Assembly (NCBI RefSeq): GCF_000443995.1
Contig: NZ_AUMC01000010.1
Coordinates: forward strand, 434,001 to 498,000
Direction: 5' to 3'
Length of the DNA stretch: 64,000 nt
Source: Bacteriovorax sp. BAL6_X
GTDB lineage: Bacteria > Bdellovibrionota > Bacteriovoracia > Bacteriovoracales > Bacteriovoracaceae
Each line of letters begins with the position of its first letter. The first letter of the stretch is position 1. Under the pieces are notes generated by a model. It saw nothing but the letters and a program-made list of their open reading frames with translations, was not told the DNA's origin and did no database searches. The position numbers were made by a program, and so were the translations under genes. Below are positions 4,644 to 43,067 of the stretch, piece after piece.

Positions 4644-4789
4644 CGTATCAACCTTGTCTGTTATAGTTTTGTGTAAATTAATATTTGGCCCAAAATTTAT
4701 CACGAAACCTATGATTTTGACAGTTTGGATAGGGCATAAAGTGCCGAAAAAGTCTCAATTTCTTACAGATTTAGGGCCAGTGGCCGAAA

Positions 4790-6244
4790 TTGTCGATAAA
4801 GTTCATGATGCTACGTATTTTATTGATTTTAACTATTACACTTTCAACCCTCGCTGGGCCTTCAGATCTTGAAACTAAGTTCAAGGATGATAGAAAGTCC
4901 CTAATTAGGTGGGATCAAATTAAGGCCAAGAAATGGTTAGACTTTGATGAGTGGAAAGAAGAGCTACGCTTTAAGGAAAGTTACCCTTTATGGCGTGACC
5001 TTGAAAAAATCTCGGGCATTGATGAAGAAATAGGTCGTGTCATAAAATGCGTAGGTGAGTGTACTCTTTTTAGAGCTCTTGGGAATAACCAAGTTGGATA
5101 CCGATCACTTATAAAAGAAAATGATGATATTGAAACAGGAGTTGATAGCTATCTTTGGCTTATGCTCTTTGACGGTACCCTTATTCGCATGGCCCCTGAA
5201 AGCTCAATTTCACTTAAAGAAATGAATGTTCTAAAAAAAGAAGTTTTTTTCAATATTCGAATGAATGTCGGAAATATTCTTCTAATCTCACGCTCAAAAG
5301 AAAAACTTGCGGATCTCGAACAAAGAGATACAGATGCAGTTTTCTTTCCATTACCTATTAATAAAACGAATCCTGTCGTATTTGATAAAAATGTTTCAAT
5401 GAACGAATATCTTTTTAAAGATGGACTACGTTATAAGTCTCGTGCTCGCTTCATTAATGAGGCCATTGAAAAGAATAACAAGAGTGTTGTGAGAAAGAGT
5501 CGATTCTTTATTCAGTCGCCACTTTATTCTTTTGAGGCCTACGCTCCATCATTTGAAACATATGTTTCAATAGGTGGTGATAGCTACCTAAAGTTTAGAG
5601 ATGAAGAGCAACTTGGTTATAAGAATGAATTCGCAACGACTCCTAAAGTAAATCTACGCGGCTATGAAAATGATAGTTTTGAAGATCTAGAATATGGAAG
5701 CTGGTATAAGTTCTCATTCATTAATCGCAATATGTTTGTCACTAAAGACACTGAAGTTTTAAGTCAAAATGAATTATTTACTAAGCGTATTTATGGGATT
5801 TACTACACTCGTGAAATCTTTTTGGAGCGCTACGGAAAGCCTCTATTTGCTGAAGGTAATGAAGTTCAGCTTGCAAGAAATTTTGGCCTAAGACTGTGGA
5901 GTAAAGAAGAGCTTAAGAAGCGTCTCGATTTTTTATGGACTAACGTCAGGGAAGTTGAAACGACTAATCTCGCTATTGCTGATCGCTATCGAAAATCTGT
6001 CTTAAGTCGTGCCAATCGTCGCGATAAAGAGGTCTTACGAAAAGATTTTTACACGAAGGCGCAAGAAAGTTACTATAAAGTTGGTGCGATGGAGAATGCG
6101 AGAAGTTATTTTCCAAAGCTTAATTCTGAAAAACAAGAACTATGGAAGAAGTTAAATGGTATCTACACTGAAATTTATCCTGGCCTCAGGAAGTCCACGT
6201 CGCAAGGAACTACTCTCTTGGATGAAAGTTCCGATTCAAATTAA
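4790..6244 (+). CDS. Exported FecR-domain-like protein
   Basis: A 484-residue protein with an N-terminal signal sequence (MMLRILLILTITLSTLAG). Residues about 85-165 have the FecR-domain pattern: a VIKCVGECTLFR opening, an ENDDIETGVDSYLWLML block, then a DGTLIRMAPESSI turn. FecR domains often sit in the periplasm and sense or bind ligands. The remainder is charged and has no recognisable fold. The start could be the ATG at 4790 or the paired Met codons at 4805; the Shine-Dalgarno sequence is weak in both cases. Its 3' end overlaps maf by 89 bases, so the two are probably expressed together. Confidence 0.7.
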   Translation: MSIKFMMLRILLILTITLSTLAGPSDLETKFKDDRKSLIRWDQIKAKKWLDFDEWKEELRFKESYPLWRDLEKISGIDEEIGRVIKCVGECTLFRALGNNQVGYRSLIKENDDIETGVDSYLWLMLFDGTLIRMAPESSISLKEMNVLKKEVFFNIRMNVGNILLISRSKEKLADLEQRDTDAVFFPLPINKTNPVVFDKNVSMNEYLFKDGLRYKSRARFINEAIEKNNKSVVRKSRFFIQSPLYSFEAYAPSFETYVSIGGDSYLKFRDEEQLGYKNEFATTPKVNLRGYENDSFEDLEYGSWYKFSFINRNMFVTKDTEVLSQNELFTKRIYGIYYTREIFLERYGKPLFAEGNEVQLARNFGLRLWSKEELKKRLDFLWTNVREVETTNLAIADRYRKSVLSRANRRDKEVLRKDFYTKAQESYYKVGAMENARSYFPKLNSEKQELWKKLNGIYTEIYPGLRKSTSQGTTLLDESSDSN

Positions 6245-6776
6245 ACCATCTGATGTTGAAGAAATAACAACGAAAGTACATCCTAAAGATATTGTTGAAG
6301 AGTTGGCCGAGCTAAAAGGGCGAGACATCTTTTCACAAGAGTTTCCCAAAGATGACAATGTCTTTGTTGTCGCTTCTGACACTCTTGTGGCCCTTGGTGA
6401 TAAGGTTTTAGGAAAACCAAATGATCGAGAGCATGCAAGGCAGATGTTATTAGAGTTGTCTGGGAAAGAGCATGATGTTTTCACTGCTGTTTATATGGCA
6501 TGCGGTGATAAAGAATATACTTTTTCTAGATGCTCAAAAGTTAAATTTACAGATATCTCACCGGAGATCTTAGATCTCTATCTTGAAAGTGATGAGGCAC
6601 TCGATAAGGCCGGATCATATGGAATTCAAGGACAGGGCCTTCTCTTTGTTGAACATATGAGTGGCTCATATTCAAATGTTGTCGGTTTTCCTCTTGCTGA
6701 CTTTATTGCTGAGATGAAAGCCTTTCTTGATGAGATGGGTCTTGATAGCAAGAATTGGAGAGAGTTATTCGTATAA
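6156..6776 (+). CDS. maf: Maf-type nucleoside triphosphate pyrophosphatase
   Basis: A 206-residue Maf/HAM1-fold protein that hydrolyses non-canonical or excess NTPs to NMP and pyrophosphate. Family signatures are all present: ASGSPRRKELL at 10-20, the catalytic-Asp segment ASDTLVALGDKVLGKP near 72-87, and DKAGSYGIQGQG near 150-161. The YhdE (dTTP/UTP) subfamily is likeliest, but substrate is not certain. The N-terminal motif requires a start near 6156, placing the first 89 bases inside the upstream FecR-like gene in another frame, an unusually long overlap. The next gene overlaps its 3' end in turn. Confidence 0.92.
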   Translation: MVSTLKFILASGSPRRKELLSWMKVPIQIKPSDVEEITTKVHPKDIVEELAELKGRDIFSQEFPKDDNVFVVASDTLVALGDKVLGKPNDREHARQMLLELSGKEHDVFTAVYMACGDKEYTFSRCSKVKFTDISPEILDLYLESDEALDKAGSYGIQGQGLLFVEHMSGSYSNVVGFPLADFIAEMKAFLDEMGLDSKNWRELFV

Positions 6777-7123
6777 GTGATTTTCTACATTCAAAAAAAT
6801 TAAACTTCACTACTATTTCAAGTTGTGAAGAAGAATTGGTTTTGGAGGTTGAAGTCTGGGCGAAGCCTGGTGCAAAAGTTGAAAAGGTAAGTGTTGCTGA
6901 AACTGGACAACTTATTGTCAGCACTCAATCACCACCAGAGGATGGTAAGGCCAACGCCGGTATTGTAAAGCTTGTTGCAAAGAGATTTGGCGTAGCGAAA
7001 AATCAGGTTCAACTTACCTTTGGGCTTCAATCGAAGTTTAAAAAAATGGCCATAAGCTTCGTCTTTGCGCATAATAAAGATAGTGAATATTACTTATCAA
7101 AGATAAAGAAGGCCCTAAATTGA
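6755..7123 (+). CDS. YggU/DUF167 family protein
   Basis: Small protein of the UPF0235 (YggU, DUF167) family, of unknown function. The diagnostic core is visible: KPGAKVEKV, then PPEDGKANAGIVKLVAKRFGV. The longest frame starts with TTG at 6755, overlapping maf by 22 bases and giving 122 residues. The family is usually near 95-100 residues, so an internal TTG at 6836 (after GAAGAAGAA) is an equally good start and would give about 95. It is the third gene of a compact run with maf and the gene downstream. Confidence 0.82.
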   Translation: MERVIRISDFLHSKKLNFTTISSCEEELVLEVEVWAKPGAKVEKVSVAETGQLIVSTQSPPEDGKANAGIVKLVAKRFGVAKNQVQLTFGLQSKFKKMAISFVFAHNKDSEYYLSKIKKALN

Positions 7124-7614
7124 AATCAGTTTTAATGACTCTTTTATTCATACCGACTCTGACTATTTATGCTCAAGCAGAAAAAGGTGAGACTCCATCT
7201 GAAAAAGAGATGAGTAAGGCCATGTACGCAAAAATCGAAGAGGTGAAGAATATCCCACCAAAGGATTATGTGACAAAAACTCAGGTCATCAGAAAGGAAA
7301 TTGATAAGTATGTTGAGCTTAAAAAAGGTGTTTGTTCTGGGGATTACTCGACATTTGTCTTAGATCATAAGGATATCGAATCGAGTCAGCATAAGTTAAC
7401 GAAGATAGAGAAAGATCTATGCTACCGAGAGCTAAGAGCTTTTCAGGTTACTTATATCAATAATTTATTCATTGCCAAAAAGAATTACCTAAACCATTTA
7501 CATGATGAAAGGCTAAAGAAATTAGAAGAGATACGCGAGGAAACTCTACGTAGCTTAAAAGCTACGTACGACAAGCAGCTAATTTCGCCTAAGCGAAACC
7601 GCAAGAGAAGATAA
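7120..7614 (+). CDS. Exported charged coiled-coil protein, unknown
   Basis: Begins with TTG overlapping the TGA stop of the yggU-like gene (TTGA), a typical translational coupling arrangement. The product is 164 residues with a signal peptide (MKSVLMTLLFIPTLTIYAQA) and a Lys/Glu-rich, predominantly helical mature region. It has two Cys, at about 72 and 101, that could form a disulphide, and a basic tail (SPKRNRKRR). I recognise no family. Probably periplasmic. Confidence 0.65.
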   Translation: MKSVLMTLLFIPTLTIYAQAEKGETPSEKEMSKAMYAKIEEVKNIPPKDYVTKTQVIRKEIDKYVELKKGVCSGDYSTFVLDHKDIESSQHKLTKIEKDLCYRELRAFQVTYINNLFIAKKNYLNHLHDERLKKLEEIREETLRSLKATYDKQLISPKRNRKRR

Positions 7615-30795: not shown

Positions 30796-30820
30796 AAACT
30801 GAGGCCCCCTTATTATTTTT
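30781..30820 (+). terminator. Probable intrinsic terminator after smpB
   Basis: Inner hairpin CAGT-aaaa-ACTG, with outer GGGG and CCCC arms, then TTATTATTTTT. The stem begins inside the last codons of smpB. It may also help terminate the convergent multihaem gene. Confidence 0.5.
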
Positions 30821-32423
30821 AGTGTGTCATTTTTTGATACATTTTATCGAAGTACTCGTCGTTTACCCCTGAATAAATTCCATCGCGATCTTTTTTATAC
30901 CACTCAGGTGATTGGTCACTTGTATGGCAACCAAGACACTTATTCTTAATAGCGGCCTTTGTATGGGCCTTCTTTTGAGTCTCATCTTCAATTGCAAAGG
31001 GATGATCTGTAACCATAGCGTGACAGTTTAGACATTGTACATTGGCAAATGAGTGTTCCACTTTGTGTTTCTCATTGGCCTTATCCCATGCAACGCGAAT
31101 TGATTTAATCTTCTTAGAGTCAAGCTTACGAACAGAGGTCACACCACTAAAGGCCTTTGTTACATCCTGCCAGTACTTGTCTTTGTGGGCCTTAAATTTA
31201 GCATCACTTGTTTTTAAATCTTTAAAGTGCACAATATCATTATGATTGATATAACCACCTTCTTCATTCATTCCAAGAGAGTGGCATTGCATACAGCTTG
31301 TTTTATTCTCTTCCTTGGCAATTATAAGTGTTCCAAAAGATATCGCGTGAGGTGTCTTTGCCCAATGATCACCTTGATCAGAGTGACACTCAAGACAGCT
31401 CTTAGTATCTGCAAGCTTCTTGATTCCAGTGTCAGCAAAACTTAGACTCTTTTGTTCCTGGTCACGAATCTTATCAAGCTCTTGCTTGTGATTATTAATA
31501 AATGTTGTGAATGGATTATTTGGAATTTTTTCTCCCAATTGCTCGCGCATCTCATGGTAAGAGAATTCCTTTTCTAGCTTTTCAGCTCCTGCAGAGAAGG
31601 CGACTTCTCCTAAGTAGTGATTCTTAGAAAGAACTTGTACAATTTGGGTATTTCCTACATCGATTGAGTAATTTGTGAAGCTTTGTGAGTGAGAGCCAAT
31701 AATCCAGTCAATGACAGGATATGCTTCAGCAAATTTCTTATCATAATCAAGTCCAGCGTGAGACATTAAAACCAGCTTATGAAGTGGATTCTTTTCGTCA
31801 AAGCCTGCTTCTTTAAGTTTGGCTATTGTGTCCTTAAAGCTCTTAACTGGGTTAACAAATAGGTTTCTGTACTCAGGTTGTAAAGTGCCCCCGGCCACGA
31901 TACCTGTTAGAAAAATTGTACTCTTTCCAAAGCTAATCTTAGCAAATTCTTGATGGGGTAGAGTGTTTTTATCAGCAAGGTTTGAAACGAGAACTTTAAA
32001 GCTGACTTGAGAAAGAACTTCTTTGTAGAAATCGAGTCCCGCCGCTAAATCCTGATCACCTGGAAGTGTATACTTAAGTCCCAGTTTATCTAAACCCTTT
32101 GCTAGTGAGACCGCTGCAAACTTTTGAGACTTTTCAATATGTCCTGGTACAACAGATGAAGGAAAGAGCATATCTCCTGTATCGATATAGAGGTATTGAT
32201 GATCTTTTTTAAATTCACTCATAAAGCCCGCTACCTGAGGGAGGCCTCCTAGTGGAAATTGGCGACATCCACACGGGTGTGTTTCGCCTGAGATTGAGTG
32301 AGAAAATAGAATGGAAAACTTCGGTCCTTCAATCTTTATCTCTTCACTGTCTCGGTCTAAGTCAATAATACTTTGGCAAGAAAGTGCAAAGGTTAAGCTT
32401 AGGAGTCCTAAAATTCGTTTCAT
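30819..32423 (-). CDS. Metallophosphoesterase-like / tetrahaem cytochrome c lipoprotein
   Basis: A 534-residue lipoprotein (lipobox ALSC, Cys-16). The N-terminal ~300 residues follow the UshA-like calcineurin fold in the 'PCGC...GGL' subgroup: THPCGCRQFPLGGLPQVAGF, YIDTGD, then SHAGLDYDKK and IIGSHSQSF. Some metal ligands look altered (GDQD where most have GNHE), so activity is doubtful. The C-terminal part has four c-type haem sites: CLECH, CMQCH, CLNCH and CLGCH, with several distal His. Such fusions could move electrons in the periplasm. It ends the pal operon. Confidence 0.85.
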   Translation of the reverse strand: MKRILGLLSLTFALSCQSIIDLDRDSEEIKIEGPKFSILFSHSISGETHPCGCRQFPLGGLPQVAGFMSEFKKDHQYLYIDTGDMLFPSSVVPGHIEKSQKFAAVSLAKGLDKLGLKYTLPGDQDLAAGLDFYKEVLSQVSFKVLVSNLADKNTLPHQEFAKISFGKSTIFLTGIVAGGTLQPEYRNLFVNPVKSFKDTIAKLKEAGFDEKNPLHKLVLMSHAGLDYDKKFAEAYPVIDWIIGSHSQSFTNYSIDVGNTQIVQVLSKNHYLGEVAFSAGAEKLEKEFSYHEMREQLGEKIPNNPFTTFINNHKQELDKIRDQEQKSLSFADTGIKKLADTKSCLECHSDQGDHWAKTPHAISFGTLIIAKEENKTSCMQCHSLGMNEEGGYINHNDIVHFKDLKTSDAKFKAHKDKYWQDVTKAFSGVTSVRKLDSKKIKSIRVAWDKANEKHKVEHSFANVQCLNCHAMVTDHPFAIEDETQKKAHTKAAIKNKCLGCHTSDQSPEWYKKDRDGIYSGVNDEYFDKMYQKMTH

Positions 32424-32435
32424 TATTTACATACC

Positions 32436-33221
32436 TTATTTTTTATAACTCGCTAATAACTTCTTAGCAGTAGGGACGTGACGGCTTTTTGGAAATGATT
32501 TAAGCATTTCTTCAAGAGTCACAATTGCCTGTTCTGTTTGGCCTTGTCTCTTAAACGTTCTTGCTAGATATACTAGCCCGTTACCGTTGTAAGCAGAATT
32601 TGGCATTGATGTATAAAGAGTTGAGAAATATGTGACTGCATCGTCATTTCTCTTTTGAATATAAGAAATCATTCCTAGATTGTGAATGATACGACCGCGT
32701 CTCTTTCCTTTAATTTTACCTTCTTTAAAAAGTTTCTCTAGAATCGGACGTGCTTCGCTATACTTGCCTTTTCCATAAAGGAACATTGCCTGATCATAAG
32801 GTGAGCGGTTCTTTGCTTTTGCTAATTTTTTTCGCTTACTTTCTTTTTTTTTTAACAGTGCGAGCACTTCTTTAATGAATTTATCCTGTTCTTCGATCTT
32901 AGCAGTAAGCTTTGTAACTTCATCTGTTAGGGCAGTATTTTGTTCTTCAAGTTTTAGAAGTTTTTGATCAACAATTTCAAGCTTTTGATCTTTTCCATTA
33001 GTGTACTCTTCAAGTTGTCCTTGGAATTGGAGAACACTGTCTTGCAGTTCCTGCATTTTTGAAAGAGAGTCTGCATTAAGCTTTTGGCTCTGTTGCATTT
33101 GGACAGACATTGTATTTATTTTTTGTTCGCGCTCAATTTGTTCTTGCGTTTTACAAGAGGTCATTGAAGCGGCCATTAATGTAGTTAATGTAATTGTAGT
33201 AATTAGGGAAGTTTTCTTCAT
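32436..33221 (-). CDS. CpoB/YbgF-like coiled-coil TPR lipoprotein
   Basis: A 261-residue protein with a lipobox ending MTSC (Cys-23), a long coiled coil (about 40-135) and three or so C-terminal TPR repeats beginning SPYDQAMFLYGKGKYSEARPILEKL. This order matches CpoB/YbgF, the Tol-Pal partner that links outer-membrane constriction with peptidoglycan synthesis, although CpoB is usually not lipidated. It is in one operon with Pal, which supports that role. A run of ten A encodes Lys near residue 125 and could be slippage-prone. Confidence 0.8.
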   Translation of the reverse strand: MKKTSLITTITLTTLMAASMTSCKTQEQIEREQKINTMSVQMQQSQKLNADSLSKMQELQDSVLQFQGQLEEYTNGKDQKLEIVDQKLLKLEEQNTALTDEVTKLTAKIEEQDKFIKEVLALLKKKESKRKKLAKAKNRSPYDQAMFLYGKGKYSEARPILEKLFKEGKIKGKRRGRIIHNLGMISYIQKRNDDAVTYFSTLYTSMPNSAYNGNGLVYLARTFKRQGQTEQAIVTLEEMLKSFPKSRHVPTAKKLLASYKK

Positions 33222-33245
33222 GAGAAATTCTCCGAATAAGATATA

Positions 33246-33557
33246 TTAAATGCTATCGAGTGTTTTCTTACGATATGCCTTGAACTCGGCCTTTTCTGAG
33301 AATTGCTTAGAAAGAATGGCGTACTTCTTAGCTTTATTAAAGAATTTTCTCTTGTAGCTTGATTTCGCTTTTAAGTAGTAGAATTCGGCCTTTCGGTAGA
33401 GGTTAGGAGCGAGTGTTTGTCCGCCAGCTTCCTTGGCCGCAAGGAAAGCAACCTGTGCATAAGTCATTTCTAACTTCGGGCGTACGGTCGTAAGACCGCA
33501 GCTTCCCAAAGATAGAAGTAAAATTAAAAATGTGATCTTATTTTTTAATTTTTTCAT
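33246..33557 (-). CDS. Small lipoprotein, DUF4398-like
   Basis: A 103-residue lipoprotein (LLLSLGSC, Cys-20) made of two to three amphipathic helices: QVAFLAAKEAGGQTLAPNLYRKAEFYYLKAKSSYKRK, then a similar FFNKAKKYAILSKQFSEKAEFKA. Helical repeats of this A-x-x-x-Y-x-A kind are typical of DUF4398 envelope lipoproteins commonly encoded beside Pal/OmpA-domain genes. The family assignment is by pattern only. It lies ten bases after pal and 24 before the CpoB-like gene. Confidence 0.75.
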   Translation of the reverse strand: MKKLKNKITFLILLLSLGSCGLTTVRPKLEMTYAQVAFLAAKEAGGQTLAPNLYRKAEFYYLKAKSSYKRKFFNKAKKYAILSKQFSEKAEFKAYRKKTLDSI

Positions 33558-33567
33558 TTTTTAAAGA

Positions 33568-34059
33568 TTACTTTGCAATAATTACGAAGTTTCCTCTTCT
33601 GTTTTGTGACCAAGAATCTTCATTGTGACCAAAAGAAATAGGTCTCTCTTTCCCGTAAGAAGTAGTTGAGATTCTAGATGCATCAACACCAAGAGCTACC
33701 AGGTAGTTCTTAATTGCACGTGCACGGTTTTCACCAAGTGCCATGTTGTACTCACGTCCACCTCTTTCATCAGCGTGACCTTCTACTTGTACTTCAACAG
33801 AAGTATTTTCTTTTAAGAAGTCAGCATTTGCTTCAAGAGTGGACTTTGTTGATGAGCTTAGTCCTGAAGAGTTAAATGCGAAATAAACAGTTCTAAGAGT
33901 ACCTGCTTTACCAGAGTCTGAGTCACCATTTACTTCAAGTGAAGCATTGTTGTAATCAACAGATTCTACAGAAGATGTTTCATCAGTTTTTGACGATGAA
34001 CCACATGAAGTCATAACTAGTGCAGAACCTAAAAGTAATAGTGTAAAAAGCTTTTTCAT
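33568..34059 (-). CDS. pal: Peptidoglycan-associated lipoprotein (Pal)
   Basis: A 163-residue outer-membrane lipoprotein: signal ending VMTSC (Cys-19), a Ser/Asp-rich linker, then an OmpA domain with VYFAFNSSGLSS, VEVQVEGHADERGGREYNMALGENRA and SYGKERP. The EGHADERG/NMALGENRA block supplies the Asp and Arg that grip meso-diaminopimelate in peptidoglycan. It heads a minus-strand envelope operon. Ribosome binding site GGGGGAACAA is strong. Confidence 0.95.
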   Translation of the reverse strand: MKKLFTLLLLGSALVMTSCGSSSKTDETSSVESVDYNNASLEVNGDSDSGKAGTLRTVYFAFNSSGLSSSTKSTLEANADFLKENTSVEVQVEGHADERGGREYNMALGENRARAIKNYLVALGVDASRISTTSYGKERPISFGHNEDSWSQNRRGNFVIIAK

Positions 34060-34111
34060 TTGTTCCCCCTTTCCATTTATGTAGAGTTTTTATTGTAAAT
34101 TGGAAAATAGC

Positions 34112-34128
34112 TATACTTTAAAAGTATA
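34112..34128. promoter_or_regulatory. Perfect 17-bp palindrome upstream of pal
   Basis: TATACTTT-A-AAAGTATA, arms exact, 53 bases upstream of the pal start. It also contains -10-like TATACT on either strand, so it may be an operator, a promoter core, or both. Confidence 0.45.
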
Positions 34129-34384
34129 TAATAAATTTAGGTGTTTAGATACCGGCAGAAAAGGAGATTTCATTGGAGTGTTTTACTCTGTTTATTAATA
34201 ACCCGTACTTAATTGTGTTTCTTTTAATAAAATTGTCTATTTTTCAAAACAAGAAAATTTTCTAATATCTGCCAAGAATTTAAGTAAAGAAAAGTTAAAG
34301 TTTGAGAAGAGCTATTTACAATGTGAATCAGTCAAAATAATGTTTATTTGAGGTTATTGAAAAGTCCTTATCTTGTGTGTAAAA

Positions 34385-34437
34385 GCCTGGCCGCCGTCTT
34401 TTCCTGTCTCTGCTTAAGTTGCGGCCAGGCATTTTTT
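34385..34437 (+). terminator. Orphan long-armed hairpin with T run
   Basis: Ten-base perfect arms GCCTGGCCGC (34385-34394) and GCGGCCAGGC (34421-34430), a 26-base pyrimidine-rich loop, then ATTTTTT on the plus strand. No annotated plus-strand gene lies upstream, as the nearest gene is divergent. It may be the 3' end of a small RNA or a leader attenuator for the coiled-coil gene 144 bases downstream. Confidence 0.6.
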
Positions 34438-34580
34438 CAATCCTCAAAATTTAAATTTAATCTCAAATTGCTTTAATACTCCTCACAAATTTTAGACGCA
34501 AATGAGACTGTTGGTTTTACCAATGGCCTTGTATTTGTGCACTAAGTTAGTCTTTTGATCTACTAAAAGAAGGGGAGAAT

Positions 34581-37500
34581 ATGAGTACAATCGGAATTAG
34601 TAAAAAATTAGTTATTTTATCACTTATGGCCGTTGCTTCACATGCAACATTACCTGATGAGATCGATTATCAAAAGTATTCAAAACTTTATGATAATTCA
34701 AAAACTCAAAGTCAGTCAGCGAAAATCAAAGTAGAAGAGCTTAAATCTGAAGTCTTAAAGATGACAGAGATGCTTGAAGTAAATACTCAAGATCTTGAGT
34801 TAACGATGAAGATTGTTGCAGATGCTACCGCTATGATCGATGAGTTGAGTGGAGAGAGTGAAATTCTTGAAGTGAACTTAAGTGAATTAGTAAGAGAGCA
34901 AGGGCAAATTGAAGAAATCTTAGCTTCTGTTAAAAAGGAGCTTAGTGAAGGTAGGGTTATCGTTAATAATAATGAGGCCATGCTAGCGTCATTAAAGAAG
35001 AGTGTTGAGGTTGAACAGTCTATCTTAAAAGAAGTAATGACGGAGTTAGAGTCCAATAAGACTTTAAGTAAAGAGAACGAAGATAAGCTTATTTCTCTAA
35101 AAGCAAGAGTGACACTCTTAGGAAAACAAACAGAAAATAAAGCAGTTGAAGTAAAGAGTTTAACGAAAGACTATAGTAGTATTTTAAAGGAAGTATCTGC
35201 TAATAAGAAGAAACTAGGGCTCGTGGTACCAAAGGTAAGACCTCTAGAGTTAGAAATGGAAAAGCTTGATACTTATATTGTAAGAAAGAGAGAGATCTAT
35301 CGTGCAGCAAAGCTAAGAGCGGAAGATATCAATATTGAATATAATGAGCAAACAAGCTCAATTCGTCCTTTACTGAGAAAGAGAGATACTATTCTATCTA
35401 ATATCAGTGTCGAAAAAAAAGAATATGCAAAATCACATGTCGCACTAATTAAGTACCAAGAAGTAATGGACTCAATTAAGGTTGAAGCCAGTGCATACAA
35501 AGCGGAGATGGAACGAATCGATGCTGATCAATCAATTAAGAAGCATGAATTAGAAAAAATTGAAATCGACTTACTTCAATTAGGTGATAATCAAACTTCT
35601 GAAAGAAGAATTCTTTTGGCCAAGAAGCTTGAAGTAGAAGGGGAGATTAAGGTCTTAGATGATGAATATGATGTCATTAAGAGTAAACTTTCAGTTGTTG
35701 AATATAAGATTAAAGATGGTGGTTTAAAGTTAATGCATCTTGGAAAGCAATATGAAAGTGCTGAAAAGAAGCTTAGATATCAGGAATCTCTTCTTGTGGC
35801 AGTTGATAAAAGGATTATTAGGGCGGCCCCAAAGTTTAAACAGCTTGAAGCTTCTTTAGAAGAAGCAAGGCTTGAGTTAAAGCGTTCACAAGATGACCTT
35901 GGTGTTTCGATAGCAGAATACGAAGAGGTAAAGCATCAGCTTAGACTTGTGAATGGAGAAATTGAAGCCCTTAATGAGGAGAAAGATACTCTTAGAAAGA
36001 AAGAGCTTCTTGCTAAAGATAAGCTAAGAGTTGTTCAAGTATCTCTTAAAGAATTAAAAGAAGATCATCTTAATACTCAAAACAAATTAGTTGAAACTGA
36101 AGTGAACTCTGGCAAACTTGCTAGAAATCACACGACGCTTGAAGCAAAGCGTGACTTACAACAGAAGAAAATCGCTGGTATTAATGATAAGATTTTCGAA
36201 ACACAAAAAATGTCTCAAGATGCTCTTAAGAGAAGCGAAGAGTTAAATATTATCGCATCGACAAAAGAGAAGAGAATGTCTGAGCTTGTGGATGAAGTCT
36301 TAACGACTCGTTCTCGTCTAAGAACGAATACTGCTGCAATTGTAGAAAACCAGGCCGAGTTAAATGCAGGTCTAGAATTAATTGATAAACTTGAAAAAGA
36401 AAATGCTGAACTTACGTTAAGAAGAACGAATGCTGAAGATACCCTAATTATTTCTGAAGCAAGAGCTAATGAATTAGAGCAAACAACACAGGATGCTCGT
36501 ATTCAGTATGAAACTCGTCAAAACCTATACAATGAATATGTTAGTGAATCAAAAGTTCTCGGACAAGTCGATGCTATCACTGACGGTGCAAGTATAGGTT
36601 CAGAGACAGCATCTGCTGATGCAATGGCCGATGCTAATAAATATGGTGGCATGAATGGGCAAAATGTTGGTGCGCTTGATAGCTACCTTGTTGGGCTAAG
36701 TGAAGGTCTAGAACAAGGTAAGACTGATGGTTATAATCAAGGTGTAAACTCACAAGAGGACTATGATCTTGGCCATGAGGAAGGTTATGCAATCGGATTA
36801 CAGAATGCTAAGAATATTGCAATGGAAGAAGATTTTCATGCTGCCTTTACGCAAGCTAAAGAATTAAAAATGTCAGTCCTTCCAAATGATCATGTTGTTC
36901 TTACAAATAAGGTTCAGGAAAGAGAATTCTTTATGAGCACTTCTGAGCTGCTAAATTTTGTAAGTTTCGAAGAAGACGGCCACTCAGATGATGTACCTTT
37001 TAATTTAGGTGATTCAAAAGAAACATATGAAGAAGAGGTTGTTCGTATTGAAAATCAGATTGAAGCTCTTACAAGTAATATCGAAGAGATTAAAGGAAGC
37101 GCGGAATATGTTTATACTGCTCCGACTAAGATTACTGAAGGGAAGGCGAAGTTACGTTGTCAAAGCGTATATAAACAAGTCTCAGAATTAAGAGCGATTT
37201 GTGAAGATTCATATCATGAAATTTATGGCCAAGAATTCTTAGCCTCACACCGTAAGGTTTATTTTGAAGAGTATGACCAATTATTTGTTGATGCCAGAGA
37301 AGAAGCGAGAACTAATGATCACGCAGAAGCTCATAAGCAAGGTCTTGATCGTGGTCACCGTTATGGGTTTGGTGATGCAATGATTGAAGGTCAGAGAGTT
37401 GCATTTGAAAATGGCAAGAAAGATGGTGCGGCACTGGCCCAAGATGAAAACCTAGGTACACTTCGTGAGCAAATGGCCATTGAAGGGAAGGAAAAAGGGA

Positions 37501-38243
37501 CTACTCTTTTTGAAGATCATGCTGTTGTAAGAATTGATAAATCTAGAGGAGCGATTCTAACAAGTGGTGATCCTAGAGGACTTGCTCAAGATAGTAATTT
37601 TGGAGTTGGTCTAGGACTTGTGAACTTTGGAAAGGTTGCAAGTGAGAAAGGTGTTATCTCTGCGAAGGTTATTTCAACAAGTGATAATATTGAGGTCTTT
37701 GATAAGAAGGTTAATCTAGCTGAACTTCCAGCCGAATCAAAGATTGATCTAAAAGATGTTATCTTTGCAAAGATTACCAATAATGCAAAACCTGGCTCTA
37801 TTGTAAGTATGGATATTGAGCTGACTTATCCTGGTGATAGCTTAAAGGATAAGTATACAGAAGTGACAACTTTCAAATCTGTTGTTCTGCCTAATCCAGA
37901 TATTAGATATGCAGTTGCTTTTGATGAGACTGTTGAGTATGGAAAGTGTTGGCTAGTTTGTAAGTATAAATCTCACGATATTAAGTTCCAACTCAAAGGA
38001 GTTCGTGACAATATTCCAGGTGAATTTCAAGTTAAACTTGATGTTCTTGAAGGTGGTAAGTACCTTGAATTAAACGAGACTATTGCAAAAATGCCAGTTC
38101 CTGGTCAAGGCAAGATCGAGTCAGGTAAATTCTCTTATAAGTTTAAAGAGAAGGCCGCAGGGAAAGAGTTAAAGTTCAAAATGGATGTCCTCTATAAGGG
38201 GAGCGTACTGCATACCAAAGTTTTCAATGTTAAAGTGAAGTAA
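34581..38243 (+). CDS. Giant secreted coiled-coil protein, copy 1
   Basis: A 1,220-residue protein with a Sec signal (cleavage after SHA, then TLPDEIDY). Residues about 30-660 form an almost continuous charged coiled coil. Around 675-750 lies a region dominated by Gly every four residues (GLEQGKTDGYNQG, then LGHEEGYAIGLQNAK), followed by a mixed domain. A C-terminal ~250-residue beta-rich region (FGVGLGLVNFGKVASEKG, then KCWLVCKYKSHDIKFQLKGVRD) follows. It lacks a membrane anchor. The next gene is a full-length paralogue. Probably a periplasmic or extracellular structural protein; no known family recognised. Confidence 0.85.
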   Translation: MSTIGISKKLVILSLMAVASHATLPDEIDYQKYSKLYDNSKTQSQSAKIKVEELKSEVLKMTEMLEVNTQDLELTMKIVADATAMIDELSGESEILEVNLSELVREQGQIEEILASVKKELSEGRVIVNNNEAMLASLKKSVEVEQSILKEVMTELESNKTLSKENEDKLISLKARVTLLGKQTENKAVEVKSLTKDYSSILKEVSANKKKLGLVVPKVRPLELEMEKLDTYIVRKREIYRAAKLRAEDINIEYNEQTSSIRPLLRKRDTILSNISVEKKEYAKSHVALIKYQEVMDSIKVEASAYKAEMERIDADQSIKKHELEKIEIDLLQLGDNQTSERRILLAKKLEVEGEIKVLDDEYDVIKSKLSVVEYKIKDGGLKLMHLGKQYESAEKKLRYQESLLVAVDKRIIRAAPKFKQLEASLEEARLELKRSQDDLGVSIAEYEEVKHQLRLVNGEIEALNEEKDTLRKKELLAKDKLRVVQVSLKELKEDHLNTQNKLVETEVNSGKLARNHTTLEAKRDLQQKKIAGINDKIFETQKMSQDALKRSEELNIIASTKEKRMSELVDEVLTTRSRLRTNTAAIVENQAELNAGLELIDKLEKENAELTLRRTNAEDTLIISEARANELEQTTQDARIQYETRQNLYNEYVSESKVLGQVDAITDGASIGSETASADAMADANKYGGMNGQNVGALDSYLVGLSEGLEQGKTDGYNQGVNSQEDYDLGHEEGYAIGLQNAKNIAMEEDFHAAFTQAKELKMSVLPNDHVVLTNKVQEREFFMSTSELLNFVSFEEDGHSDDVPFNLGDSKETYEEEVVRIENQIEALTSNIEEIKGSAEYVYTAPTKITEGKAKLRCQSVYKQVSELRAICEDSYHEIYGQEFLASHRKVYFEEYDQLFVDAREEARTNDHAEAHKQGLDRGHRYGFGDAMIEGQRVAFENGKKDGAALAQDENLGTLREQMAIEGKEKGTTLFEDHAVVRIDKSRGAILTSGDPRGLAQDSNFGVGLGLVNFGKVASEKGVISAKVISTSDNIEVFDKKVNLAELPAESKIDLKDVIFAKITNNAKPGSIVSMDIELTYPGDSLKDKYTEVTTFKSVVLPNPDIRYAVAFDETVEYGKCWLVCKYKSHDIKFQLKGVRDNIPGEFQVKLDVLEGGKYLELNETIAKMPVPGQGKIESGKFSYKFKEKAAGKELKFKMDVLYKGSVLHTKVFNVKVK

Positions 38244-38251
38244 TGTCAAAA

Positions 38252-38281
38252 GGGCCCACTTAATAATAGGTGGGCCTTTTT
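38252..38281 (+). terminator. Intrinsic terminator of coiled-coil gene 1
   Basis: GGGCCCAC (38252-38259) and GTGGGCC (38270-38276) arms, followed by TTTTT. It separates the two paralogues into different transcription units. Confidence 0.9.
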
Positions 38282-38440
38282 GGCCTTTATTTCTTGTAAA
38301 TAATTCAAACAATAATGTCATTTTCTTATAAAATCTTACAATTGTATTAGTTAATTAATTTCTTTTTAAAGAACCCTCAACATTCCCAAAAGGGAATTAT
38401 AAAACACTTCTTATCAAAGTGATCAAAAGGAGAGGGAATC

Positions 38441-41400
38441 ATGATGAGATCAAATGCACTAAGCAGAAATGTTGTTTTATTGTCAGTTATGGCCATGGCG
38501 GCCAGTGCACATGCGGGGCTACCAGACGAAATTGACTACCGTACTTATCTTTCGACTTACAACTCAGCTAAATCCCAAAGTGATGCGGCCAGAATGTCTG
38601 CCACTCAAATCAGTGATCTTATCCAAGAACTAGCGGCCAGACTTGAGGCCAATGGAAGCGAAATTTCAATCTCTAAGAGAGAGATCGAAGAGGCCATCGC
38701 TGTTGTTTCAGACTTAAATGCACAGAATATGAACCTAGAGACAACAATCTCTGAATTAAGTTTTGAAAACCAAGGGCTAGAGCAGGAGCTTCAAAGACTT
38801 GCTGATTCGCTCGATGATGTAAATAGCGATATCAATCGCACTGAGTCTGAGCTTGCAGGTCCTCGAAATACAGCTCGTAACCTAAGGCGTGCCCTCGATT
38901 CAGTTCTTTCAAGCCTTAGAACAAATGATGATCGCCTAGGCAACGCGCAAAAGAAATTAGATCGTACAAGAAATGAGATCAAATCATTAGAGTCAAATAT
39001 CTCAAAAGCAATTGATGAGCGTGACCGCTTAAATATCAAGCTTCCAAAAATCCAAGAAGAAATGAAATCGAAGAAACAAGACCTTACTCAGGCAACTTCT
39101 AAGGTTTCAACGTTTGAGTCACAAGTAGCAAATGCTCGCACAAAACTTCAAGCTGCAAATACTGAAGTAAGTGAGGCCCAAGCTAAGGTTACTCAAATCG
39201 AAAATAAAATCTCAAAGCAAGAGCAAGCTGTTAAGCCTCTTGTTCAGAAGAGAAGTAATTTACAATCTCAATTAAGTTCAGCTCAAACAGCTCTCTCTGC
39301 TAAATCAAGTGAGCTAGAAAAGGCGAAGAGTGAGCTTGAGAGTGCCAAATCACAAATTGATGGCCTTAAATCACAAAGAGAAACTCTTGCTTCTCAAAAG
39401 ACTAATCTTGAAAAGAAGAGATCGGCACTAGAAGCTGAAATGCAACAAGTAGAACAGGCCCTTAGGGATTTAATGGCAGGTGATCGAAATGACCGTGGAA
39501 ATGCTAATCAAATTAAGAACCTGAGAGAGCGTCGTAAAATTCTAAGAGACAAAATTCAACAAACGAAAACACGTCTAACAAAGGTTGTTGGTGATTTTGA
39601 ACAAGTTAATAAGAAGATTACGAAGGCACAAAGTACAATCAATGGAGGAAGTAGTAAGATTGCTATCCTTGAGTCAGAAGTTAATAGAAAAAAAGGTGAG
39701 GTTAGAAACCTACGTCAAGATATCAAGGCCGTTGAGGCCGAAATCGCGCAAGCCGCTCCTCAGCTTGAAAAGCTTAAGCAAAGGCTTACTTCTGCAAAGA
39801 GTGATCTAAATTCAACTAAGACTGCTCAAGCATCAGCAAAGTCAACTCTTGAAAAGGCACAAGCTAAGCTTGCACAGGTGAAGTCAGATATCAAACGCAT
39901 TGAAGGTGATATTGCTTCTCTTAGAGATCAAAAGCAAAAAGCAACACAAAGAGTTGCACTAATCGACTCTGATCTTAAGAAATTTAGAAACGAGCTTAAT
40001 CGCGAAAAGAATCAGTTTGAAACTCAACGCCGTGAAGTTGGCACTCTAAGAAATACGCAAAAGGCACTTGTTGCGGAACGTGATTCATACCAGAGAAGAC
40101 TTTCTGTGGTTGAGTCAGATATTAAGCTACTTGTTGATCGTCTTGATTCACTTCACGTAACAAGACTTGAATTTGAAGAACAATCTCAAGCCAGAAGTGA
40201 AAGACTGGTTGCTAATCAAAATATCATCGCTGACTCATCTCAGCGAATCATGCAAAACTCAAGTGTTATCGCATCGAAAAGATCTCAGATGGCAAGTAAC
40301 GAAGATCGCATCGCTGATCTTGAAACTGAAAGAAGCCGTCTATTAGAAGACAAGCTTGTCAAAGAAGAAGAGTTTGCAAGAGCAGATACTGTAGCAAGTG
40401 ATCTTGAAGATATCACGAATGAGAAGTACCAAGCTTACCAAAGCCGTAGCAATCTTTATGTTCAATATGAAAGAGATGCAAAAGCTCTTGGAGCATCTCA
40501 AGGTGAGGCTGCTGGAGCAACAGCAGGAGAGTATAAGGCAAGTGCCGATGTCCAAGAAGATGCAAACTTCTTTGGAAGTGCAAACGGTAAAAAACTAGGT
40601 GAGCTACGTGGCTACCTTGCAGGCCTTAAAGACGGTAAAGAAGACGGGCTAACAAAAGGTTATGAAGCCGGTGTTAACTCTCAAGCAAGTTATGATGAAG
40701 GTTTTGCAAAGGGGTATGAGGCCGGTGTTGCTAAGGCCAAGAGTCTAGCAAAAGCACAAGAATTCCCAAGAGGATATGAGCAAGTTAAGAGTGAGTCTTT
40801 CTCAAGTAAACCAGCAAATAGAGTGATGTTATCAAATAGTGTTAACGGAAGTCTTTTCTTAGAAAAAGCCTTCTCAGTGGCACAAGAATTTGTTTCAACA
40901 AGCTTTGAAGCATTTGATTTTGTCGCTCCTGAATATTCTGCATCTCCTGAGTCTTTAAGCTCAGCTTTCAACTCTAAAGTTGATCAAGAGATCGCAAAGA
41001 CAAAAAGAGAGATTGAATCTTATGAAAATGATCGTGCAAAAACAAAAGCGCTTCCTCAATATGCGTACACTGCGCCAACTCGCATCGATATCGATGAAGA
41101 CTTCAAAAATTGCTTTGATGTTTACAAAGGTGTTAATGAGTTCAAGAAAGCATGTGGCGCCTCTTACGATGCCGCTTATAAAGCTGAATTTAATGTTAGC
41201 CACAAAGATACTTACTTCGCAGGCTATGTGGACTTCTTTGAGAGTTCTCGTGATGCCGCTGCCGCTGGTGATTTTGGGGCCGAAACGCAAAAAGGTTTCG
41301 ACAAGGCCTACAAGACTGCCTTTGCTGAAGCTCGCTTAGAAGGTGAGGGTGTTGCCTTCAAAAATGGTGCAGCTGATGGCCAGGAAGCTGGATTTGATGA

Positions 41401-42205
41401 GAATATCCAAGCAGCTAAAGAAGAAATGCTTGCTCTTGGTAAGTCACAAGCAAAGAAGCTATTTGCTAGTAACGCTGTTGTTCGCCTAAATCAAGCAGCT
41501 CAAACAAGTGTTAAAACTGAAGATGCAAAAGGTCTTACTCAAGATGGAAAATTCTCTGTCGGACTTGGGCTTGTAAACTTCGGAAAGCTTTCTTCAAACC
41601 GTGGGGCAATCAGTGCAAAAGTTGTAGCAGCGACTTCAAATGTTGAGATCGTAAATTCTCGAGCAAACTTAAGAGTACTACCTGCACAAGCACAAATTGA
41701 ACTAACGGATGTTATTCAAGCTAAGGTTGCAAATAACGCTCGCCCGGGATCAGATATCGAAATGAAGATAGAGTTAACTTACCCTGGAGATGAGCTAAGT
41801 GGAAGCTACACTGAAATCGCGACATTTAATGCAAATGTTGTGGTTAACCCAGAAGTTCAAGTGGCCCTTGATTTTGAAGATAAGGTTAAGGATCGCAAGT
41901 GTACGCTAGGTCTATTTAACTGTAAGTTTAGAAGCCACGATGTAAAAGTGAAACTAACAGGATTACGTGATTTTGTTCCTGGAAGTTATGATGTTGCAAT
42001 CAGCGTTCTAGAAGGTGACAAGTTTGTTGAACTAAAGAAGGGATCAACTAAGGTTGCAGCTCCTGGTCGCGGAGTAACAGCAACTGGTGCACTAACTTAC
42101 AAGTTTAAGAAAAAGACAAAAGACGATAAGCTTAAGTTTAAAGTCGATGTTTCTTACAAAGGCGAGCTACTTCAGTCCAAAGTATTCGATGTAAGAGCAA
42201 AATAG
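38441..42205 (+). CDS. Giant secreted coiled-coil protein, copy 2
   Basis: A 1,254-residue paralogue of the preceding gene, similar over its full length. Signal peptide cleaved after AHA, then GLPDEIDYRTY. The coiled coil spans about 35-690. The four-residue Gly repeat is at about 723-766 (AGLKDGKEDGLTKGYEAG, then YDEGFAKGYEAGVAKAK), and the beta-rich C-terminus keeps FSVGLGLVNFGKLSSNRG and KCTLGLFNCKFRSHDVKVKLTGLRD. It is richer in Ala/Ser/Gln and lower in Glu than copy 1, so the two have diverged in surface charge. AAGGAGAGGG is a strong ribosome binding site, and a TTCCC-aaaa-GGGAA dyad lies at 38383-38396. Confidence 0.85.
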   Translation: MMRSNALSRNVVLLSVMAMAASAHAGLPDEIDYRTYLSTYNSAKSQSDAARMSATQISDLIQELAARLEANGSEISISKREIEEAIAVVSDLNAQNMNLETTISELSFENQGLEQELQRLADSLDDVNSDINRTESELAGPRNTARNLRRALDSVLSSLRTNDDRLGNAQKKLDRTRNEIKSLESNISKAIDERDRLNIKLPKIQEEMKSKKQDLTQATSKVSTFESQVANARTKLQAANTEVSEAQAKVTQIENKISKQEQAVKPLVQKRSNLQSQLSSAQTALSAKSSELEKAKSELESAKSQIDGLKSQRETLASQKTNLEKKRSALEAEMQQVEQALRDLMAGDRNDRGNANQIKNLRERRKILRDKIQQTKTRLTKVVGDFEQVNKKITKAQSTINGGSSKIAILESEVNRKKGEVRNLRQDIKAVEAEIAQAAPQLEKLKQRLTSAKSDLNSTKTAQASAKSTLEKAQAKLAQVKSDIKRIEGDIASLRDQKQKATQRVALIDSDLKKFRNELNREKNQFETQRREVGTLRNTQKALVAERDSYQRRLSVVESDIKLLVDRLDSLHVTRLEFEEQSQARSERLVANQNIIADSSQRIMQNSSVIASKRSQMASNEDRIADLETERSRLLEDKLVKEEEFARADTVASDLEDITNEKYQAYQSRSNLYVQYERDAKALGASQGEAAGATAGEYKASADVQEDANFFGSANGKKLGELRGYLAGLKDGKEDGLTKGYEAGVNSQASYDEGFAKGYEAGVAKAKSLAKAQEFPRGYEQVKSESFSSKPANRVMLSNSVNGSLFLEKAFSVAQEFVSTSFEAFDFVAPEYSASPESLSSAFNSKVDQEIAKTKREIESYENDRAKTKALPQYAYTAPTRIDIDEDFKNCFDVYKGVNEFKKACGASYDAAYKAEFNVSHKDTYFAGYVDFFESSRDAAAAGDFGAETQKGFDKAYKTAFAEARLEGEGVAFKNGAADGQEAGFDENIQAAKEEMLALGKSQAKKLFASNAVVRLNQAAQTSVKTEDAKGLTQDGKFSVGLGLVNFGKLSSNRGAISAKVVAATSNVEIVNSRANLRVLPAQAQIELTDVIQAKVANNARPGSDIEMKIELTYPGDELSGSYTEIATFNANVVVNPEVQVALDFEDKVKDRKCTLGLFNCKFRSHDVKVKLTGLRDFVPGSYDVAISVLEGDKFVELKKGSTKVAAPGRGVTATGALTYKFKKKTKDDKLKFKVDVSYKGELLQSKVFDVRAK

Positions 42206-42210
42206 AAAAA

Positions 42211-42238
42211 AAGCCTCCGCAAGGGGGCTTTTTTTTTG
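42211..42238 (+). terminator. Intrinsic terminator of coiled-coil gene 2
   Basis: AAGCCTCC-gcaa-GGGGGCTT stem followed by a long T run. Confidence 0.93.
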
Positions 42239-42251
42239 CTAAGATTTTCCC

Positions 42252-43067
42252 ATGAAAAAAATAATTCTCACTTCTTTATTTAGTCTTGCATCTTTTGCAA
42301 ATAACTGTTCAAACCTTGAGGCCATTGCTGACACTTTTAAAAGTGACTTAAAGGCCGAGCTTGAAAAGACATTCTATCCTGAGGATGCTCGTGGCCAGGA
42401 GCAGTTTCGCGTGAAAGTGGGACAGAAGTTAGATTATTTAAAAAGTCTAAAGCACCAAGTTGATGTCTGCTATCAAGATTATCAAATGAAAGATGAAGTT
42501 TATAATTGTAGTCTCTCGGCAGATCTACTTAAGTCTCGACATCCAGGTGGCCTTACGACAAGTTACACCAATGCTCTTTCAACAGACGGGGATTGCATGG
42601 CCTATCTTTTTCTAGGCCATACCATGACTCGTAACTCTTCGGGCAAGGTGATTTTAAAAAGCCTTGGTGGAAAATTTGAAATCAACACGCTTTATAAGTG
42701 TCATGGTGATTACACCAATGAGGAAAACTCATTTCGTAAAATGATTCTCTCTGGGGATAATTTCTTTGTGATGGATCAGTATGTGATTTATCGAACAGAT
42801 GTGAAGGTACTTGGAAAGAAGTATGTGTCACAAAATCTTCTTGCCGTGGAGTATATGGATGAGGAGATTGTCTTTAACTACGGCAGCGCTGAACTTGTCA
42901 TTTCAACAAAGGATGGTAGTGTGACTCGCACTAATTTCCTGACGATGGATGAGGTGAGTGAAGGAAAGTGTCAGACGGCCTTTAGTGAGAAAAATAATTC
43001 GATCTATCCGCGTACAAATATCGATGAAGCGCTCTGGGGATTTAGGTTAGAGTATGTCTCATACTAG
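42252..43067 (+). CDS. Exported protein, unknown
   Basis: A 271-residue protein with a short signal peptide (MKKIILTSLFSLASFA, then NNCSN). The mature part has seven or so Cys at spaced positions (for example NNC, VDVCYQDY, YNCSL, GDCMAY, YKCHGD, GKCQT), suggesting disulphides in the periplasm. The C-terminal half looks beta-rich (FGSAELVISTKDGSVTRTNF-like strands). I recognise no family. Its last codons overlap the start of pcp by 14 bases. Confidence 0.7.
   Translation: MKKIILTSLFSLASFANNCSNLEAIADTFKSDLKAELEKTFYPEDARGQEQFRVKVGQKLDYLKSLKHQVDVCYQDYQMKDEVYNCSLSADLLKSRHPGGLTTSYTNALSTDGDCMAYLFLGHTMTRNSSGKVILKSLGGKFEINTLYKCHGDYTNEENSFRKMILSGDNFFVMDQYVIYRTDVKVLGKKYVSQNLLAVEYMDEEIVFNYGSAELVISTKDGSVTRTNFLTMDEVSEGKCQTAFSEKNNSIYPRTNIDEALWGFRLEYVSY

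Follow-up and report, generated by a model that had tools for sequence, protein, structure and literature searches.

A 64-kb stretch of the 3.23-Mb genome of Bacteriovorax sp. BAL6_X (contig NZ_AUMC01000010.1), here called the window, carries two adjacent genes, copy 1 and copy 2, encoding secreted coiled-coil proteins of 1,220 and 1,254 residues. Sequence statistics and a structure model together indicate that the coil very probably folds back on itself as an intramolecular antiparallel hairpin. The first-pass annotation of this locus had described the two proteins as secreted and built to the same plan, and the open reading frames, the N-terminal motif, the glycine ladder, and the C-terminus all bear this out. 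It had also reckoned that a continuous rod of the coil's length would reach about 90 nm, so that the proteins would have to fold back, run along the surface, or leave the cell. A turn at the coil midpoint in nearly all homologs and the back-folding predicted by AlphaFold contradict the continuous rod and, among the three options, strongly support folding back, into a hairpin of about 47 to 48 nm.

The midpoint turn

The two proteins are 31% identical overall and 41% identical over the last 580 amino acids, ending in VFNVKVK (copy 1) and VFDVRAK (copy 2). From LPDEI to the glycine ladder anchor their coils measure 628 and 648 residues, respectively, in line with the ~630 residues first estimated, with a heptad period of 3.50. 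Among 54 homologous members complete at the 5' end, the strict motif LPDE[IV][DN] was present in 33 and a relaxed form in 46.

Both anchors needed to locate a midpoint, the LPDEI-like motif and the start of the ladder, were available in 44 of these members; three without the motif (L038, L042, and L098) and seven without the ladder anchor were left out. The 44 coils ranged from 403 to 990 residues, with 22 distinct lengths, and in 42 of them a Pro or Gly lay no more than 3 residues from the exact midpoint, compared with 9.1 ± 2.6 for randomly placed centers (maximum of 20 in 5,000 draws). When one member was taken per coil length the count was 20 of 22, against a null mean of 4.7. The midpoint reads as a turn in nearly all members, for example, GPQ/TPQ, MPD/SPT, and GDN/QTS (the slash marks the center). 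Relatedness alone cannot explain a turn that keeps to the center as coil length changes.

Pairwise comparisons were examined for changes in length. L083 has lost ~175 residues around the tip relative to L081 (51% identical), in three gap runs that all fall within about the central third of the coil. Copy 2 is shorter than L023 by 14 residues in the N-arm and by 13 in the rest, and the gaps are mostly heptad sized. In L094 (positions 2472 to 7256 of that locus), a 1,594-residue homolog whose 990-residue coil would form a hairpin of about 74 nm, the prolines mirror best about the midpoint, with five pairs (five of the eight on the N-arm) versus a mean of 0.87 over all centers.

Structure prediction of the monomer, a check proposed with the annotation, modeled the coil of copy 1 as a hairpin. 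In the mature protein AlphaFold placed a helix at residues 7 to 310 (with a short break at 162 to 166), a loop at the midpoint (residues 311 to 315), and a second helix at 316 to 633, and the predicted local distance difference test (pLDDT) score of the arms was mostly 70 to 85. The modeled arms overlay the arm of Pyrococcus SMC (5xg2) with a Z of 13.1 and a root mean square deviation (rmsd) of 3.6 Å over 237 residues; this overlay spans model residues 192 to 434, with its center at 313. A second overlay was with the enterococcal protein PrgA (6z9l; Z of 12.9, rmsd of 13.3 Å, 326 residues). Dips in model confidence are roughly symmetric, at about residues 160 to 190 and 440 to 490 of mature copy 1, and it is a matter of speculation whether they mark a bend or elbow in the middle of each arm.

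Several observations weigh against so simple a picture of the coil. A loop-propensity scan made with no prior for the midpoint located the strongest break no farther than 15 residues from the middle in 19 of the 44 members (about 2.8 expected); because only these 19 are centered, the coils must have other breaks too. Over all members, the mirror symmetry of Pro and Gly was weak and not significant (P 11 versus a mean of 6.1, standard deviation of 4.2), and the gaps in two pairs (L034 versus L031 and L095 versus L099) were one-sided, which is probably alignment error at 26 to 27% identity. The AlphaFold model of mature copy 1 drew on an alignment of 6 sequences and reached a mean pLDDT of 66.5 and a predicted template modeling score of 0.30, and in it the ladder and Cys region appeared as low-confidence helices (pLDDT mostly <50), leaving the base without a usable model. 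Since a Z of ~13 between long helices may reflect merely a common arrangement, the model was given less weight than the midpoint statistics. The midpoint-turn test makes the back-folding of a long coil readable from sequence alone and corrects the interpretation of such proteins as giant coiled-coil rods in genomes of this kind.

Distribution, descent, and coil length

The profile search for the C-terminal region that the annotation had proposed was run across the phylum. A profile that included the coil (A2) recovered 146 of 368 genomes but also matched coils, and it was rebuilt from 40 sequences as a profile running from the Cys pair to the C-terminal end (A7). At a cutoff of 1e-5, A7 matched 137 of the 368 genomes; about 65 of these, by hand count, lie at E<1e-40, and the rest are partial or distant. 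Within the taxonomic family to which the window belongs, 51 of 129 genomes, from 22 of 48 genera, carry the hairpin family at 1e-40, nearly always as a single gene. All six genomes of the window genus carry it. The named close relatives of the window genome are Bacteriovorax sp. MedPE-SWde, Bacteriovorax sp. DB6_IX, Halobacteriovorax sp. ARS37, and a Halobacteriovoraceae bin. Outside this taxonomic family it is sporadic in the phylum, and one genus, g71 of family f6, probably Bdellovibrio, gave no A7 match at 1e-5.

Copy 1 and copy 2 group together as sisters (100/99) in a tree built from 54 sequences, and their branches measure 0.93 and 0.41, respectively. By this evidence the tandem pair is a lineage-specific tandem duplication, and with a single gene in most genomes, a two-component structural system is not supported. 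Two strong copies also occur in four other genomes (G009, G024, G079, and G136), far apart or on separate contigs. No full-length third copy was found in the BAL6_X genome, which does encode, at C8:63671-64486 (L115, 1000 to 3417), a distant relative of 805 amino acids with the Gly, Cys, and beta parts and without the long coil; its gene adjoins one for a secreted protein of 296 amino acids. A second, diverged family of ~1,230 residues with two ladder-like stretches (L110, G088:C9; L111, G016:C35; and L112, G087:C10) occurs commonly in genera without the main family (e.g., g14 and g56), and both families occur together in G016 and G109.

Neither copy had a match over the cutoff in Pfam or NCBIfam, in agreement with the original suggestion of an undescribed system. 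No Pfam or NCBIfam family matched most of the 40 A7 members; the widest, FliH, reached 10 of 40, below its cutoff. Literature searches found no paper on the hairpin family, and a term search of PMC11656739 found the word "coiled" 0 times. The family is undescribed in the libraries and papers searched. A mobile-element origin was considered and rejected, there being no plasmid match and, in a pattern scan of viral contigs, 14 stretches with 0 relatives. A match to phrog_4785 over the Gly-repeat stretch (PHROGs, 1.7e-4 and 5.1e-3) was set aside as compositional.

An alpha helix rises 1.485 Å per residue, and at this value the arms are 46.6 nm long in copy 1, 48.1 nm in copy 2, and 50.1 nm in a class of ten members with coils of exactly 675 residues (four congeners and six members of four other genera). 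The coils of the 675 class have a median ungapped identity of 20.2% (range, 14.7 to 69.1); one pair, L023 and L073, is 19.0% identical in register, 16.1% at the best alternative shift, and 7.7% when shuffled. The C-termini of the same proteins are 34.1% identical, yet they vary in length from 555 to 599 amino acids. Seven further members have exactly 462 coil residues at a median identity of 17.5%. Coils of 686 to 690 residues occur in one member each of families f6, f12, and f7, but the coil is 577 residues long in another member of f7 and 506 in two members of f11. Retention of length while sequence diverges is described in PMC5082667 as a mark of coiled-coil molecular spacers, and the coil sequences support length-constrained spacing.

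A stronger proposal is a phylum-specific length gauge. Selection acting on nothing but length would keep the arms of the secreted hairpin at 334 to 345 residues (about 50 nm) in different families and so define a constant spacing within the envelope of Bdellovibrionota or from the surface of the predator to that of its prey; the hairpin might also fold at a mid-arm elbow. Were it true, the window lineage would have duplicated its hairpin into two, with lengths of 47 and 48 nm and opposite charge. We hold the idea tentatively and with much more doubt than belief.

The base, the compartment, and the flanking DNA

The glycine ladder reported by the annotation is far beyond chance. In a 110-residue region, Gly pairs at a spacing of 4 number 9 in copy 1 and 13 in copy 2, against means of 1.9 and 2.4 and maxima of 6 and 8 in 2,000 shuffles, and there are 0 pairs at spacings of 2, 5, and 6. 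All of 22 sequences have Gly at ladder columns 73, 77, and 81 of profile A2. Beyond the ladder, a two-Cys pattern with a spacing of 10 to 13 was found in 52 of 57 loci examined and in both copies, and in most mature chains other Cys are few or absent. The Sec-type signal peptide (assigned by eye from the sequence in both copies), the Cys pair, and the scarcity of other Cys would fit an oxidizing compartment.

The conserved beta-rich C-terminus announced earlier also appeared in the AlphaFold model of the last 591 amino acids of copy 2, as two beta-sandwich domains with a pLDDT mostly of 85 to 96, and the model of mature copy 1 likewise ends in two beta sandwiches. A fold search of the base returned generic Ig-like matches alone, such as the Vpr fibril domain (Z of 11.2); S-layer proteins were among them, namely, SbsB (Z of 9.1, rmsd of 10.3) and the Ig-like domains of SbsC. 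Two sequence matches were rejected: 4dgu, from a search of the PDB (E of 0.084), was judged unconvincing, and pyridoxal kinase 6su9 (E of 2.3e-5), which covered the Gly ladder alone, was taken as compositional. The divergence in charge holds as first described: mature copy 1 has an isoelectric point of 5.2 and a net charge of -40, and mature copy 2 has values of 8.6 and +8.

Features of the tandem gene pair, with positions in the window
Feature	Positions	Strand	Evidence
Copy 1, 1,220-residue secreted protein, predicted coiled-coil hairpin	34581..38243	+	Open reading frame, homologs
Copy 1 putative Sec signal peptide, residues 1-22 (SHA before TLPDEIDY)	34581..34646	+	Read by eye
Copy 1 mature N-terminal LPDEIDY motif	34650..34670	+	Identical in both copies
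Copy 1 predicted hairpin N-arm, precursor residues 30-333	34668..35579	+	AlphaFold helix, mature 7-310
Copy 1 predicted hinge/tip turn, precursor residues 334-338, coil midpoint	35580..35594	+	Sequence statistics, AlphaFold
Copy 1 predicted hairpin C-arm, precursor residues 339-656	35595..36548	+	AlphaFold helix, mature 316-633
Copy 1 GxxxG ladder, residues about 661-747	36561..36821	+	Sequence
Copy 1 conserved Cys860/Cys874 pair (C-x13-C)	37158..37202	+	Homolog comparison
Copy 1, two predicted C-terminal beta-sandwich (Ig-like) domains, residues about 983-1220	37527..38240	+	AlphaFold, fold search
Intrinsic terminator after copy 1, 18-bp stem, -28.8 kcal/mol	38245..38284	+	RNA fold
Copy 2, 1,254-residue secreted protein, predicted coiled-coil hairpin	38441..42205	+	Open reading frame, homologs
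Copy 2 putative Sec signal peptide, residues 1-25 (AHA before GLPDEIDY)	38441..38515	+	Read by eye
Copy 2 LPDEIDY motif and predicted coiled-coil hairpin, residues 27-674	38519..40462	+	Sequence statistics
Copy 2 predicted hinge/tip loop AGDRNDRGNANQ, residues 346-357, midpoint	39476..39511	+	Sequence statistics
Copy 2 GxxxG ladder, residues about 684-772	40490..40756	+	Sequence
Copy 2 conserved Cys891/Cys905 pair	41111..41155	+	Homolog comparison
Copy 2, two predicted C-terminal beta-sandwich (Ig-like) domains, residues about 1014-1254	41480..42202	+	AlphaFold, fold search
Intrinsic terminator after copy 2, -20.8 kcal/mol	42203..42238	+	RNA fold

The separate promoters and terminators attributed to the two genes stood in part. 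Strong terminators follow both genes, and the promoter half of the claim gained nothing from a count of promoter-like matches, which showed no excess over shuffled DNA (18 versus 18.5). Between copy 1 and the divergent pal gene, ~145 bases upstream of the copy 1 start codon, stands an isolated hairpin that resembles a terminator and has T-runs on both strands (34385-34437; RNA fold z of -4.2 and -4.0). It is possibly a small RNA end or leader; an Rfam search of 33900-34700 gave no match.

Divergently beside copy 1, on the minus strand at 32436-34059, are genes for Pal, which exceeds the Pal_lipo cutoff, a DUF4398 lipoprotein, and a YbgF/CpoB-like TPR protein, whose match to the CpoB vesicle family NF053852 is weak (20.7 bits versus a cutoff of 250). 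The same strand encodes, at 30819-32423, a 5'-nucleotidase-type protein resembling UshA, the C-terminal half of which is like a multihaem cytochrome. On the other side, 46 bases past copy 2 and beyond its terminator, lies a gene for a secreted protein of 271 amino acids (42252-43067) that has no match in Pfam or NCBIfam. The Pal/DUF4398/YbgF-like neighborhood was discarded as a clue to function: it flanks only four loci (the window, L023, L024, and L025), all in the window genus, and neighbors elsewhere differ. In other genera a response regulator and a 400-residue secreted "PKGVR" protein repeatedly adjoin the hairpin gene. The latter was rejected as a partner, since the window genome lacks it and most genomes encode it at another site (it was found in 22 of the 29 searched).

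Proposed role and relation to known systems

Our findings support the view that both proteins look structural rather than enzymatic, and on balance we favor exported stalk or spacer proteins of the envelope or cell surface, a judgment held with moderate confidence. The signal peptide would be removed, and from LPDEIDY onward the chain would extend as one long helix that turns in a loop of ~5 to 12 residues at its exact middle and runs back to form a rigid hairpin, an intramolecular antiparallel coiled coil of ~47 nm in copy 1 and ~48 nm in copy 2. The chain would then rejoin a base composed of the mature N-terminus, the GxxxG-lined helical region, a helical segment probably locked by a disulfide, and the two Ig-like domains. 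Assembly or anchoring of the protein in the cell envelope is the most likely task of this base, and the hairpin may serve as a stalk or spacer that keeps its tip a set distance away. The periplasm of Gram-negative bacteria is usually about 20 to 30 nm wide, and a 48-nm hairpin, being longer than this, has to tilt or bend, run along the envelope, or project.

Three points count against this role. No lipobox, LPXTG, SLH, or beta-barrel anchor was seen in either copy, and for want of the first three, periplasmic, surface, and released forms are all possible. The gene neighbors give no conserved pointer to function. Lastly, the window coils, at 628 and 648 residues, are shorter than the usual 667 to 690, and since both copies have shortened, the coil is no absolute ruler.

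The alternatives differ in where they put the protein and how they fold it. A predation-specific surface stalk would have its base in the outer membrane and its hairpin projecting ~48 nm outward to touch or sense prey. The presence of the family throughout the window genus, with Bacteriovorax sp. DB6_IX among the named relatives, speaks for it, as do the frequency of Ig-like domains in adhesins and the place of cell-surface PrgA among the best overlays, albeit at the large rmsd given above. Neither copy has an outer-membrane export or anchor signal, however, and the tip is a short turn without conserved sequence that can be lost, as between L083 and L081. Moreover, at E<=1e-40 the distribution is patchy even within the taxonomic family, and at 1e-5 the probable Bdellovibrio genus is negative, so a general predation role is disfavored; we consider such a stalk rather unlikely. 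The hairpins might instead associate laterally or end to end via their GxxxG ladders and build a cytoskeleton-like sheet or cable, forming a periplasmic filament or skeleton. A strongly periodic ladder and long rigid coils would suit lateral packing, a fixed length would set the repeat, and models of crescentin and intermediate filaments match copy 2 weakly, below the cutoff. Any coiled coil would give such matches, however, and one gene is enough in most genomes; we judge a filament to be quite unlikely.

Two further readings concern the coil itself. The 630 to 650 residues of heptad pattern would suit a parallel coiled-coil rod running unbroken for about 90 nm, but a helix-breaking turn sits at the exact center of coils of any length in 42 of 44 members, and AlphaFold folds the coil back, making the rod very improbable. 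Finally, the proteins might be degenerate or exported relatives of SMC/Rad50 that act on nucleic acid. The coil matches NCBIfam SMC models below the cutoff (37.3 and 89.6 bits versus 567), and the geometry of the arms overlays that of SMC arms. These matches are confined to the coil, however, and the signal peptide (read by eye), LPDEIDY, and Ig-like domains occupy the positions of the ATPase heads; we regard the chance of this origin as close to negligible.

To our knowledge, envelope spacing and the contact organelles of predatory Bdellovibrionota outside Bdellovibrio have been little studied. A large exported family of predicted hairpins in which length is conserved and sequence is not offers a concrete candidate, easy to test, for one of the structural elements of such envelopes.

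Of the systems compared with these putative stalk or spacer proteins, the SEC10/PgrA protein PrgA (6z9l) is likewise secreted and has a long coiled-coil stalk of similar size, which is an intramolecular hairpin. PMC10588982 puts that stalk at about 40 nm. The hairpin proteins differ in having no protease domain at the tip and no LPXTG end and in belonging to a Gram-negative host, and against the SEC10/PgrA model TIGR04320 copy 2 scored 27.9 bits versus a cutoff of 70, with copy 1 not listed. SMC, Rad50, and MukB share the intramolecular antiparallel coiled-coil arm, predicted here to be about 50 nm long. The hairpin proteins, in contrast, are exported, end in a bare turn, and lack ATPase heads and a hinge or zinc-hook domain. 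Thermotoga Omp-alpha and Deinococcus SlpA likewise have coiled coils that set an envelope distance, and they use SLH cell-wall domains; in Pfam no SLH match was found at E<=1 for copy 1 or among the best 25 of 32 families for copy 2. The Omp-alpha rod is given as 50 nm (PMC5082667), and SlpA is described as a coiled-coil envelope spacer (PMC9388160).

The MAT fibers of Bdellovibrio are, similarly, large fibrous secreted proteins of predatory Bdellovibrionota. They are reported to be linked with the CpoB vesicle, to reach about 55 nm, and to carry a beta-rich domain of ~130 amino acids after the signal peptide, forming trimeric beta-fibers (PMC10769870). The hairpin protein, in contrast, is predicted to start with a helix at mature residue 7 and to form an alpha-helical fiber; as to a MAT-type C-terminus, which is a trimeric beta-prism or beta-helix with or without an S74 domain, no S74 match was among the Pfam families listed, and the monomer model has two beta sandwiches. 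A lead to the origin of the C-terminal module is the C-terminal half of TIGR03900, the MXAN_5808 family of serine peptidases: L097 matches profile positions 480 to 779 (E of 2.7e-10; 38.9 bits versus a cutoff of 661) over the Gly-helix and beta domains. In 39 of 40 homologs there was no match at 0.01, a search of the phylum with TIGR03900 returned mostly ordinary S41 peptidases, and the hairpin proteins, unlike that family, lack a peptidase domain. The GxxxG-repeat helices of FliH and Yae1 give weak matches to the ladder, below the cutoff and driven by composition, and the hairpin proteins are exported. The hairpin proteins resemble PrgA and the SMC arms in stalk geometry and Omp-alpha as a spacer, and they are members of none of these families.

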